The translations under genes were made by a program, and so were the position numbers. This document shows positions 1-49,585 of a DNA stretch of 51,775 nucleotides, piece by piece. The notes below the pieces were generated by a model. The model ran no database searches. It saw only the letters and a program-made list of their open reading frames with translations, and had not been told where the DNA came from. The DNA is from Azospirillum sp. 47_25. GTDB taxonomy: Bacteria; Pseudomonadota; Alphaproteobacteria; RF32; CAG-239. The stretch covers positions 35,697-87,471 of the forward strand of contig MNTU01000046.1 in NCBI GenBank assembly GCA_001917125.1, in the 5' to 3' direction. The first letter of the stretch is position 1, and each line of letters starts with the position of its first letter.

Positions 1-1536
<1,536 letters not shown>

Positions 1537-1538
<2 letters not shown>

Positions 1539-1640
1539 AATGTGCTAAATGCAGGTCATGCTTGAAATTTTGTCGTTTGTGTATTGATTTATACACGTCC
1601 CTTCAAAATTTCTTCGCAGCACCTGCATTTAGCACATTTT
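1537..1640 (+). repeat. Three-tier nested palindrome, family I copy 1 (terminator-like)
   Basis: Three nested inverted repeats: outer arms 1537-1556 and 1621-1640 (20 bp, perfect), middle arms 1564-1572 (GAAATTTTG) and 1604-1612 (CAAAATTTC), inner arms 1579-1584 (GTGTAT) and 1591-1596 (ATACAC). The outer left arm begins in the stop codon of the preceding gene, and the right arm runs into a T-rich tract (1637-1644), so it could terminate that gene. Its core (about 1557-1620) recurs at 1653-1712 and 46644-46707 with different arms. Confidence 0.85.
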
Positions 1641-1652
1641 CTTTAAGGCAGC

Positions 1653-1712
1653 CATGCCTGAAATTTTGTTGTTCGTGTATTGCTTTATACATATCTTTTC
1701 AAAATTTCAGGC
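1653..1712 (+). repeat. Nested palindrome, family I copy 2
   Basis: Second copy of the core, starting CATGCCTGAAATTTTG. The middle arms are 1656-1668 and 1700-1712 (13 bp, perfect). The inner arms are GTGTAT 1675-1680 and ATACAT 1687-1692 with one G-T pair. It sits between two convergent genes, about 96 bp from copy 1. Confidence 0.8.
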
Positions 1713-1725
1713 CGCCTGTTTTGTC

Positions 1726-5099: not shown

Positions 5100-5462
5100 G
5101 TGGCGAAAGCAGCTGTTCAACAAGATGAAGACAAGGTCTTGGAAATTATTGAAAAAACATTGGATGACAACAAAGCCGAAGATGTTGTTGTTATTGACCT
5201 TCGCGGCAAAACTTCGATTGCCAACCAAATGGTGGTTGCCAGCGGTACATCGCAGCGTCATGTCGCTTCTCTGGCGGAGAAAGTTCAGGAAAATCTGAAA
5301 GCAGCCGGTTTTTCTTCTACGATTGAGGGTGAAGAGAAAGCCGATTGGGTTTTGATTGATGCCTTTGATGTCATTGTTCATATTTTCAAGCCGGAAGTGA
5401 GGGCGTTTTATAGTTTGGAAAAAATGTGGTCCTCTTTAAAAATTCGTTCTGTGGACAACTAA
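5100..5462 (+). CDS. rsfS: Ribosomal silencing factor RsfS
   Basis: A 120-residue RsfS/YbeB/iojap protein. I place the start at GTG 5100 because AAAAGGAG ends seven bases upstream; the frame stays open further 5' to 5037, but that extension overlaps obgE and adds nothing conserved. Family motifs are visible: DVVVIDLRGKTSIANQMVVASG, then DWVLIDAFDVIVHIFKPEVRAFYSLEKMW. RsfS binds L14 on the free 50S subunit and blocks joining with 30S when nutrients are short. In many bacteria rlmH follows directly; here about 2 kb of accessory DNA separates them. The final codons and stop recur as an imperfect repeat downstream. Confidence 0.95.
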   Translation: MAKAAVQQDEDKVLEIIEKTLDDNKAEDVVVIDLRGKTSIANQMVVASGTSQRHVASLAEKVQENLKAAGFSSTIEGEEKADWVLIDAFDVIVHIFKPEVRAFYSLEKMWSSLKIRSVDN

Positions 5463-5478
5463 TACAGAATTTTCAAGA

Positions 5479-5522
5479 CGGAAGTTTCCTCACGTACTAG
5501 TGTGTACGCTGCGGTACTTCCG
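5479..5522 (+). repeat. Nested hairpin, family II copy 1 (terminator-like, after rsfS)
   Basis: Outer arms CGGAAGT 5479-5485 and ACTTCCG 5516-5522; inner arms CGTAC 5493-5497 and GTACG 5504-5508. A T-rich tract follows (5524-5540). The core contains CTCACGTACT (5489-5498), which recurs exactly in the next hairpin. Confidence 0.65.
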
Positions 5523-5606
5523 CTTTTAATTCTTATTATTTGTCACACATACCAAATTTTTAGGTAAAGTTTGTTCTGTGGCCGATTAATACAGATTTAG
5601 CAGGTT

Positions 5607-5631
5607 GGCAAAATGCTCACGTACTTTTGCC
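5607..5631 (+). repeat. Hairpin, family II copy 2
   Basis: Arms GGCAAAA 5607-5613 and TTTTGCC 5625-5631 enclose the core TGCTCACGTAC, sharing the 10-mer CTCACGTACT with copy 1 but with unrelated arm sequence. Confidence 0.6.
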
Positions 5632-5701
5632 CATTCCGACTAAGTTGCTGTATCGTTGCGCTGTCACTAGCTTGAAAATCAACAAACTTTGTCTGTTGTC
5701 A

Positions 5702-5773
5702 GAAAACAATTCACCGGATTGTTTTCTTTCCGCCAGTGCTTTTCGGCGAAAAATAGTCCCCCAGACTATTTTT
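5702..5773. repeat. Two further perfect inverted repeats
   Basis: GAAAACAAT 5702-5710 pairs with ATTGTTTTC 5718-5726, and AAAAATAGTC 5749-5758 pairs with GACTATTTTT 5764-5773. Both have short loops (7 and 5 bases). Their role is unknown; they add to the dense hairpin structure between rsfS and the VirB2-like gene. Confidence 0.6.
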
Positions 5774-45143: not shown

Positions 45144-46211
45144 ATGGAAAACGAGCGACTAGTCAGCCCTGAAAAACTGCATGAAGACGAACAAAGCGCC
45201 GGAGCGCCGGTCAGCCTGCGTCCGAACAGCCTGAAAGATTTTGTCGGGCAGCCGTTGGTTTGTGAAAATCTGAAGGTTTTTATCGAAGCGGCAAAAAAAC
45301 GCGGCGAAGCCTTGGATCATGTGCTGCTGTTCGGTCCTCCGGGGCTGGGCAAAACCACGCTGGCTTCAATTATAGCCAAAGAGCTCGGGGTCGGTTTCCG
45401 GGCGACCTCGGCGCCGATGATTTCCAAGTCGGGCGATTTGGCGGCAATTTTGACTAACCTGGAACGCAACGACGTTTTGTTTATTGATGAAATTCATCGC
45501 CTGAATCCGGCAATTGAAGAGGTTCTGTATTCGGCAATGGAAGATTTTCAGCTTGATTTGATTATCGGCGAAGGACCGTCGGCCCGCTCGGTGCGAATCG
45601 ACTTGCAGCCGTTTACGCTGGTGGGAGCCACCACCCGTTCGGGATTGCTGACAACCCCGCTGCGGGAGCGTTTCGGCATTCCGCTGCGGCTGGATTTTTA
45701 CAGTCCGGAGGAGTTGAAAAAAATCGTTATCCGCGGAGCGCATCTGCTGGGTATGCCGATTTCCGACGACGGGGCAATGGAAGTGGCCAAACGTTCGCGG
45801 GGCACGCCGCGCGTGGCCGGGCGCCTGCTGCGTCGGGTGCGCGATTTCGGGGCGATGGCCGATGCGAGCGAGGTTAACAATAAAATTGCCGATAAGGCTT
45901 TGCGCCGGCTTGATGTTGACAAATACGGGCTTGATGCGTTTGACCGCCGTTATCTGCAATGTATTGCGGTCAATTACGGCGGCGGGCCGGTCGGTGCGGA
46001 TACGCTGGCGGCAGCTTTGTCGGAGGAGCGGGATACGATTGAAGAAGTGATTGAGCCGTTTTTGCTGAAACTCGGCTTTTTGCAGCGGACGCCGCGCGGC
46101 CGCGTGATTTCCGACAGCGGACGTGAATATCTGGGGTTGCCGCAGGTGCGCAAAACCCGGGCGGCAGATTCGCAGTTTGATTTGCTGAAAATAATTGAAG
46201 AGGATATGTGA
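45144..46211 (+). CDS. ruvB: Holliday junction DNA helicase RuvB
   Basis: A 355-residue AAA+ motor; ATG 45144 follows AAGGAAT by a few bases (a TTG six codons earlier overlaps ruvA). Walker A is GPPGLGKTT (64-72), Walker B LFIDEIHR, the arginine finger region [17 protein letters not shown], sensor [19 protein letters not shown], and the C-terminal winged helix with [10 protein letters not shown]. It drives branch migration. Its stop overlaps the ybgC start (TGATG). Confidence 0.97.
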
Positions 46212-46654
46212 TGACTTATGACGTGCAGCCGGCGGCCGGAAAGTTTTACGGCGCCAAGTTTGTCTATCCGGTTCGGGTTTACTATGAAGATACCGATGCC
46301 GGCGGGATAGTCTATTATGCCAATTATCTGCGTTTTGCCGAGCGGGCAAGGACGGAATTTATCCGCGCCTTAGGCTGCAATCAGCAGGATGCGCTGGAGG
46401 CGGAAGACAAATGCGGTTTTACGGTACGGAGCTGTACGACGGATTATAAGCTGCCGGCCGTTTTGGACGATGCTCTGGCGGTCACCTGCGAACTGCGCGA
46501 TGCCAAGGGCGCATCAGCCGTTATGTTTCAGGAAATTTACCGGGGCGATACTCTGCTGGCAACGGTTGAAGTTAAAGTGGCTTATGTTAATTTGGGGCGC
46601 AAGCGTCCGGTTCGTATTCCTTCAGAGTTGCTGAACAAGTTGTCATGCTTGTAA
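46211..46654 (+). CDS. ybgC: Tol-Pal associated acyl-CoA thioesterase YbgC
   Basis: A 147-residue hotdog-fold thioesterase, starting at ATG 46211 inside the ruvB stop (a GTG one codon earlier is possible). The active-site region is YYEDTDAGGIVYYANYLRFAERARTEF, with the catalytic Asp in EDTDAGG; many enterobacterial homologues have His where this has the second Tyr of VYY. The gene leads the tol cluster. Its last codons (SELLNKLSCL) form one arm of a nested palindrome, and the final Ser-Cys-Leu-stop are encoded by the repeat core. Confidence 0.93.
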   Translation: MTYDVQPAAGKFYGAKFVYPVRVYYEDTDAGGIVYYANYLRFAERARTEFIRALGCNQQDALEAEDKCGFTVRSCTTDYKLPAVLDDALAVTCELRDAKGASAVMFQEIYRGDTLLATVEVKVAYVNLGRKRPVRIPSELLNKLSCL

Positions 46655-46726
46655 ATTTTGCGCTTGTGTACGTTTATGTACACGTCGCTTAAAATTTCCG
46701 TCGCAGCACAACTGTTCATCAGCTCT
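46624..46726 (+). repeat. Nested palindrome, family I copy 3, overlapping the ybgC end
   Basis: Outer arms 46624-46643 (inside ybgC) and 46708-46726 pair at about 17 of 20 positions. The core is CATGCTTG...GTCGCAGC (46644-46707), with middle arms AAATTTT 46653-46659 and AAAATTT 46691-46697 and inner arms GTGTAC 46666-46671 and GTACAC 46678-46683. The inner stem differs from copy 1 (GTGTAT/ATACAC) by a compensatory pair change. Confidence 0.8.
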
Positions 46727-46747
46727 GAGAGCTGCAAGAGCAAGTAG

Positions 46748-46800
46748 GCATGTTTGTATGTTTTGCGCTTGTGTGTTTTTAATACATTTCGCATAAGGCG
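46748..46800 (+). repeat. Degenerate family I copy 4
   Basis: GGCATGTTTGTATGTTTTGC followed by GCTTGTGTG and AATACATTTCGCATAAGG resembles the family I core but with eroded stems. It lies about 104 bp from copy 3, the same kind of tandem spacing as copies 1 and 2. The rest of the 46655-46974 gap holds no gene; TTTATGCTAGTTTG at 46911-46924 may be the tolQ -10 region. Confidence 0.5.
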
Positions 46801-46974
46801 TTCTGTGTACGTTCGATTGTTTCCGCTGCGGAAAACGGTCGGGGTTTTGTGCGGAAAAAAGTTCGTTTTTCTGTGAAAACAATGTGATTAATTAATTGAA
46901 TCTTTAATATTTTATGCTAGTTTGCGCATAAATGTTATGCACAACCTTAATTTATGCTGATGAAAGAGTAAAAA

Positions 46975-49240: not shown

Positions 49241-49585
49241 CAGTCATTGCCCTATTGGCTTTCTTTAGCGTTATTGTCCGGCTTGATTCCTTTAGTGTCA
49301 TTGCCCGACTTGATCGGGCAATCTGAATTGGAGATGTTCCGGCCAGCCGCACCCGGCGGGAGAGGTCATATCCGGCGGAGAGATGACAGAAGACAGGGAG
49401 AATGATGCTTTGCGGTGTGGATTATCCGGTCAAGCCGGATAATGACAGAGAAAGAGAATGCCAGATAATGACAGGAGAAAGATAATGCTGGATAATGACA
49501 ATAATAAAATCAGCCGGGTAATGGCAGGAGGAGGGGATTGCCCGATCAAGTCGGACAATGACAGGAAAAGTCGGATAATGAATAG
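49241..49585. repeat. Array of REP-like palindromes
   Basis: Three full units of 29 bases: 49296-49324 (ATTGCCCGA/TCGGGCAAT), 49419-49447 (ATTATCCGG/CCGGATAAT, reverse orientation) and 49535-49563 (ATTGCCCGA/TCGGACAAT, one mismatch, reverse orientation). All share a CTTGA/TCAAG loop and a TGTCAT flank. Half or eroded units lie at about 49245, 49270-49290, 49461-49475, 49489-49500, 49514-49528 and 49567-49585. The loop is constant while the stem base pairs change in step. The region has no convincing gene; small open frames across it follow the repeats. Confidence 0.85.

Follow-up and report, generated by a model that had tools for sequence, protein, structure and literature searches.

The window, that is, the whole 51,775-nt stretch of DNA analysed here, carries copies of a dispersed palindromic element that is real and widespread. 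We read it, with a little less than even confidence, as a once-mobile hairpin of gene 3' ends and intercistronic gaps that is now kept for a role like that of the ERIC or REP repeats and whose arms are partly matched at the DNA level.

The first-pass annotation of the window had described nested palindromes with a constant core and variable, self-complementary outer arms, and a check of the sequence bore this description out for the copies at 1537-1640 and 46624-46726 (copies 1 and 3): in copy 1 the outer arms form 20 bp without a mismatch, and those of copies 1 and 3 bear no relation to each other. The covariation reported for the inner stem is real, but it extends to a single pair, which is T-A in the one and C-G in the other. 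Tandem copies were indeed seen at the two loci, but an additional site, at about 5435-5705, had been overlooked. The features are given below, with scores of two covariance models, R1, built from four copies, and R2, built from 21 copies, and with fold z values against dinucleotide shuffles.

3..1538, + strand: ORF open at the window start; its stop codon adjoins copy 1
1533..1642, + strand: copy 1, full element; R2 100.7 bits; single-strand fold z -9.7, 0 of 200 shuffles as good
1537-1556 / 1621-1640, + strand: outer arms of copy 1, a perfect 20-bp stem in which the outer internal loop is closed
1580-1584 / 1591-1595, + strand: apical stem of copy 1
1647..1717, + strand: copy 2, core with short arms of its own; R1 73.8 bits; R2 30.8 bits for the core only; RNA fold z -6.0
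5103..5462, + strand: rsfS (Pfam PF02410); its stop codon lies within the third site
5435..5563, + strand: third site, a long nested palindrome across the rsfS end; fold z -5.5; R2 22.2 bits, E 0.004
5562..5705, + strand: degenerate second palindrome of the rsfS site; fold z -2.4, 3 of 200 shuffles as good
46208..46654, + strand: ybgC-like thioesterase gene (Pfam PF13279/PF03061); its stop codon lies within copy 3
46619..46729, + strand: copy 3, full element; R2 97.5 bits; single-strand fold z -5.5, 0 of 200 shuffles as good
46743..46812, + strand: copy 4, an eroded tandem copy with part of the left arm; R1 29.9 bits; R2 17.7 bits, E 0.06; RNA fold z -0.2

Copies 1 and 2 stand in tandem between convergent genes. 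The left arm of copy 3 lies in the coding end of ybgC, and the right arm repeats it imperfectly in inverted form. The third site has diverged, with an apical core that reads CTCACGTAC..GTACGCTGCG, and the second palindrome behind it contains a repeat of the rsfS gene end (repeat family D3). The first ORF begins with a tandem CAGAGC repeat (window 1-102) that encodes Glu-Pro repeats, and no Pfam family was found for its part at 132-1535. Judged by RuvB, the nearest relative of the window is a metagenome-assembled genome (L001, 92%). Only two tRNAs in the window exceed the Rfam gathering thresholds, and a permissive Rfam scan of 1480-1760 returned miRNA models only, far below threshold, in agreement with the earlier remark that no named family has this layout; nor did the searches made in open-access literature show one.

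Covariance models were needed because a plain DNA search with the core of copy 1 gave weak matches only, in 4 of 5 related genomes with a best E of 0.05, none of them recognisable as the element. R1 matched in all 7 genomes placed in the genus of G001 (E<=0.1). R2 matched in 139 of the 152 genomes of the nearest relative's family (E<=0.01, 25 candidates scored per genome), with no match in the other 13, and in 136 of 153 genomes of the order (E<=0.001). Thus, the core is by no means confined to two loci, and the arms of copies in other genomes are self-complementary too, as the first-pass model demanded. A deeper search of six genomes returned 16, 20, 27, 25, 33 and 28 matches, 149 in total, among them a few partial and opposite-strand ones. 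Outside the order the element is rare: with at most 9 candidates scored per genome, 17 of 385 sampled genomes of the class matched, 4 of which belong to the order (G001, G012, G105 and G106), and in the phylum 7 of 398 genomes did, namely G001 and six with weak matches of at most 42.5 bits, a search that also pictures the background. The strongest match outside the order (E 2.5e-16) was obtained in G402, where a strong copy (L153) directly follows what by eye appears to be the 3' end of a tRNA. The apical core is also present at 2414-2516 of a viral contig (L310; 31.7 bits for the full model), which in addition carries ORFs that we named, by eye, serine recombinase-like and LexA-like.

The element is about 110 nt long, and R2 describes it with 110 positions and 40 pairs. 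From the outside in, the stems P1 and P2, of 10 bp each, are separated by an outer internal loop, and P2 is followed by a junction, the stem P3 (9 bp) and a tip. The 5' side of the junction reads TCATRCTTG and its 3' side CGnCGnAGCA, the inner half of P3 is usually TTTT/AAAA, and the tip is composed of CGC-TTA-TGTAC, a loop of about 6 nt and GTACA-Cn-GCG. The conserved parts are the apical stem TGTAC..GTACA and the middle junction, and the outer stems vary yet stay paired. Among 37 non-redundant copies, the mean share of the commonest base increases from P1 (0.58), P2 (0.66), the apical flanks (0.67) and the outer internal loop (0.71) to P3 (0.77), the junction pairs (0.81), the junction loops (0.84) and the apical stem (0.94). 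Conservation is graded, which corrects the proposed contrast between a constant core and arms that vary at random. P1 and P2 are regular in length across copies. Of 93 copies, 84 have an open outer internal loop, 3 (including copy 1 of the window) have a perfect stem in its place, and 6 are unclear. Palindromic repeats of bacteria are usually recognised by their common stems; here it is the junction and the tip that are common, and the outer stems are nearly free.

In the alignment of 21 copies, 34 of the 40 pairs change on both sides, pairing holds in 86.1% of cells (67.1% in shuffles) and covariation reaches 0.514, compared with 0.164 in shuffles, none of 500 being as high, and at most 0.200 for slid structures; the structure of analysis A3, drawn from the same sequences that were tested, and the alignment of analysis A6, fitted to the structure, both lean towards structure. 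Together with the open outer loop, this covariation supports the earlier suggestion of selection for structure. The variation does not lie only between unrelated copies, because an orthologous site, the gap between rpmD and rplO, covaries as well. This site, assigned by eye from its flanks, is common to many genomes, and in its 18 distinct sequences 24 of 40 pairs have changed on both sides (in an alignment fitted to the model). Eleven genomes without a visible element in the gap, most of them picked because R2 matched nothing in them, were compared with these; in 10 of the 11 the gap holds another hairpin (L268-L278; z -2.0 to -6.4, three being weak at -2.0 to -2.7), the G074 hairpin possibly being the remnant of an element. 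In G010 the gap measures 21 nt and has no hairpin. The rpmD-rplO site seems to need a hairpin.

Pairing in RNA alone would make G.U mismatches far exceed A.C mismatches. In the covariance-model alignments the ratio of G.U to A.C was 57:24 (37 copies) and 184:104 (93 copies), from an aligner that itself rewards G.U. When the arms of 93 non-redundant copies were aligned with equal mismatch scores, it was 39:53 if a mismatch had to be flanked by one paired position on either side, 26:42 if by two, and 78:68 with no neighbour rule, none significantly off equality; a first unbiased run that was not restricted to stems gave 26:43 (p 0.053). As a control, 16 tRNAs of these loci gave 16:1 in their acceptor and T stems, although ARAGORN itself favours paired stems. 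Selection on the stems as RNA only, which the biased wobble counts had favoured, was rejected, since the aligner without wobble bias showed no G.U excess. With the two counts similar, the arms behave as if they were DNA-matched, and we read this as a sign that they are kept complementary partly at the DNA level, which is the strangest part of the element. Such stems are reported to arise by template switching during replication, in which one arm serves as the template for the other (PMC8794818). It would be expected to close internal loops, yet most outer loops are open, and thus something seems to keep the loop open.

The position of the element relative to genes was determined in 80 regions picked from the 149 matches, five further G010 copies being excluded. 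They contain 91 matches at E<=1e-6, at least two of which are opposite-strand matches to copies already counted (L205, L209). In 48 of the 91 rows a long same-strand ORF has its end no more than 30 nt from the 5' end of the element, and in 9 an opposite-strand ORF ends equally close to the 3' end. Without G012, which accounts for 23 rows, the five genomes left have stop codons on the sense side in 46 of 68 rows and on the antisense side in 9 of 68, and random same-strand positions in the same loci fall near a stop codon in 7.3% of 4550 cases. Most such stop codons end at model positions -6 to +7, at the edge of P1 or inside it. A hand-chosen 30 of the 47 upstream proteins were scanned with NCBIfam, and 10 of these 30 are ribosomal proteins (10 of 47 being the safe lower figure), namely L10 three times, L1 twice, L15, L19, L30, S1 and S15. 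EF-Tu, RpoA, Rho, an HU-like protein, enolase and others were also identified, as were two phosphoglycerate kinase-like proteins below the cut-off of the NCBIfam model. The pattern spans a whole family of uncultured alphaproteobacteria, and the genes that the element follows often encode ribosomal proteins. Copies at typA are antisense.

A position at gene ends, and terminator-like hairpins that follow some copies, are what a family of intrinsic (Rho-independent) terminators might present. We disfavour this explanation as very improbable: a T run directly follows the 3' arm in only 4 of 65 copies, and some copies stand within operons, as between rpmD and rplO, or before a 123-codon ORF that follows rplJ and an element copy and is presumed to be rplL. 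A downstream terminator scan, with 3 hits in 65 copies and 0.1 expected, was too strict to inform. In G012, the element is found antisense and in frame within the leaders of a multicopy gene family (L222-L241) in 19 of the 23 rows. This family has the segment M[V/I]EMLGVLAIIGVLS, and we take it, by this motif, for type IV pilin-like genes. As the flanks belong to one gene family, most of these rows are taken for copies of the gene family and not for separate insertions.

Two loci of the window suggest where arms may come from. Among 16 sequences compared at ybgC, the element is present in the window, G001, G007 and G009 (in tandem in G009 and G007), represented in G008 by its left half only, and absent from 11. 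Its left arm encodes E-L-L-N/D-K-L and aligns with element-free relatives, with a gap of one residue before it; the aligned residues are E-W-L-V-K-L in G010 and, without a long gap, D-L-L-R-K-V in G002. In the window, some 20 nt of the right arm are the reverse complement of the left apart from one gap and two mismatches, a G.T being among the latter, and the outer internal loop is, by eye, kept here too. At rsfS the left arm encodes L-K-I-R-S-V-D-N, and no element was found in the eight relatives displayed (five further loci, missed by the motif, lie outside this comparison), four of which are 87-90% identical and have ends of the form W-S-A-L/I-K-P/S-R-S-G-E. Since the left arms at both loci are host-coding, the right arm came to match host sequence at least twice, by copying or by selection.

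These loci could be explained if a short core seeded a hairpin and the nascent strand, during replication, folded back and copied the end of the host gene, each site growing arms of its own with little or no function. Copying of this kind has a published mechanism (PMC8794818), and it would yield host-coding left arms with right arms close to their reverse complement, as at ybgC and similarly at rsfS, and perfect stems like those of the three copies with a closed outer loop. It does not lead one to expect an outer loop kept in the large majority of copies and also at ybgC, regular lengths of P1 and P2, or arms that travel with the core, and we consider it distinctly unlikely.

Travel of the latter kind is evident in G083, which contains 12 copies that closely resemble one another but mostly differ in their left flanks. 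The 12 rows share P1, P2 (in two variants) and P3 (in two variants), the left arm of L261 having diverged, and in 11 of them one and the same terminator-like hairpin follows downstream; the twelfth is truncated by the end of its contig. Thus, in G083 the whole unit travelled, arms with core. These copies support the earlier description of the element as mobile and divide the suggestion that came with it, of a mechanism by which the arms become complementary wherever the element lands: the host-coding left arms at ybgC and rsfS and the similar G.U and A.C counts agree with such a mechanism, but the arms common to the G083 sites do not. The G083 unit (L194-L201, L258-L261), the element together with the terminator-like hairpin, has spread recently, and its P2 and P3 variants occur in different combinations. 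Half-unit tandems in this genome are cut near the same junction position, and the flanks hold another repeat family (GCTGGGGCAGCTTGACC...).

The G083 copies, the tandem copies at ybgC in G009 and G007, the G012 copies within genes and the similar numbers of G.U and A.C mismatches would all fit a mobile element acting at the DNA level, of MITE or REP-like kind; its recognised form would be a cruciform or a folded single strand, with a transposase or recombinase contacting the junction and the tip and gene ends serving as safe landing sites. This explanation is possible but somewhat doubtful, given the bias towards the sense strand, the rpmD-rplO site common to many genomes, a Y1 transposase found in 5 of the 13 genomes with the element and in 3 of the 11 without it, and the fact that no target duplication was recognised by eye at the G083 copies.

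In the reading that we prefer, the element, dispersed over the genome and about 110 nt long, would act in cis: it would be transcribed and become part of the 3' untranslated or intercistronic mRNA. The transcript would fold into one long hairpin just behind the stop codon, which it often overlaps, and P1 would be opened by ribosomes that terminate there. The junction and the tip might then act as a recognition or cleavage signal, separating the upstream cistron or protecting it in the way reported for ERIC, and selection would maintain the internal loops. The element would have spread first as a small mobile repeat and been retained later, with stem complementarity renewed partly by template switching during replication, one arm being copied from the other. 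Speaking for this reading are the occurrence across the family, the covariation of the stems, the position behind same-strand stop codons, the ribosomal and other upstream proteins, the other hairpins in the rpmD-rplO gap, the open outer loop and the precedent of ERIC. Counting against it are the lack of a preference for G.U, the antisense rows within G012 genes, the antisense typA copies and the 13 family genomes without a match. A more novel reading appears rather unlikely: a mobile core would land by a stop codon and gain a site-specific stem when replication folds back at the core and copies the host gene end, a factor that reads the junction and the tip would keep the loops open, and the stems would be renewed by copying and not by paired point mutations. 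With its many paired stems at known sites, the element offers a test of whether compensatory changes come about step by step or through template switching, and it also lets one ask how a mobile repeat joins the architecture of operons.

Integron attC sites are palindromes of variable sequence at gene 3' ends with conserved unpaired bases, and the element resembles them in these respects; however, the R-box pair of attC sites was not seen in it by eye, and its sites are in core operons. Rickettsia palindromic elements (RPEs) are described as alphaproteobacterial palindromes of 105-146 bp, some of them in frame inside genes (PMC2229807), which the G012 copies resemble by their in-frame, putatively translated position in pilin-like leaders; compared by description only, RPEs differ from the element, which outside G012 mostly follows stop codons. 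R2 had no match in the sole Rickettsia genome searched (G534) and a weak one in a Rickettsiaceae genome, G535 (29 bits, E 0.0015).

ERIC and REP are probably best read as the functional neighbours of the element. The ERIC repeats of enterobacteria (also IRU or RU-1, 127 bp) are likewise long imperfect palindromes of similar size in intergenic regions, reported to be co-transcribed and to affect the upstream mRNA depending on orientation (PMC2229807), whereas here, on a comparison by description only, the outer stems vary, the junction and the tip are conserved and the hosts are alphaproteobacteria. REP repeats and BIMEs of the GTAG and CGTC families are described as palindromes located mostly downstream of coding regions, the REP being 20-40 bp long with a terminal unpaired GTAG or CGTC tag; stems of the CGTC type measure 8-9 bp, and the CGTC families are mainly alphaproteobacterial, apparently without a dedicated transposase (PMC3733652). 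The element, with its 40 pairs and conserved internal parts over about 110 nt, does not belong to these tagged repeats. Nor does its distribution follow a REP/RAYT system: PF01797 is absent from 8 of 13 element-bearing and present in 3 of 11 element-free genomes, although both sets may include incomplete genomes. Elsewhere in the window, at 49291-49323 and 49536-49568, an inverted pair, TGTCATTGCCCGACTTGATCGGGCAATC, resembles a head-to-head dimer of CGTC-type REP elements.
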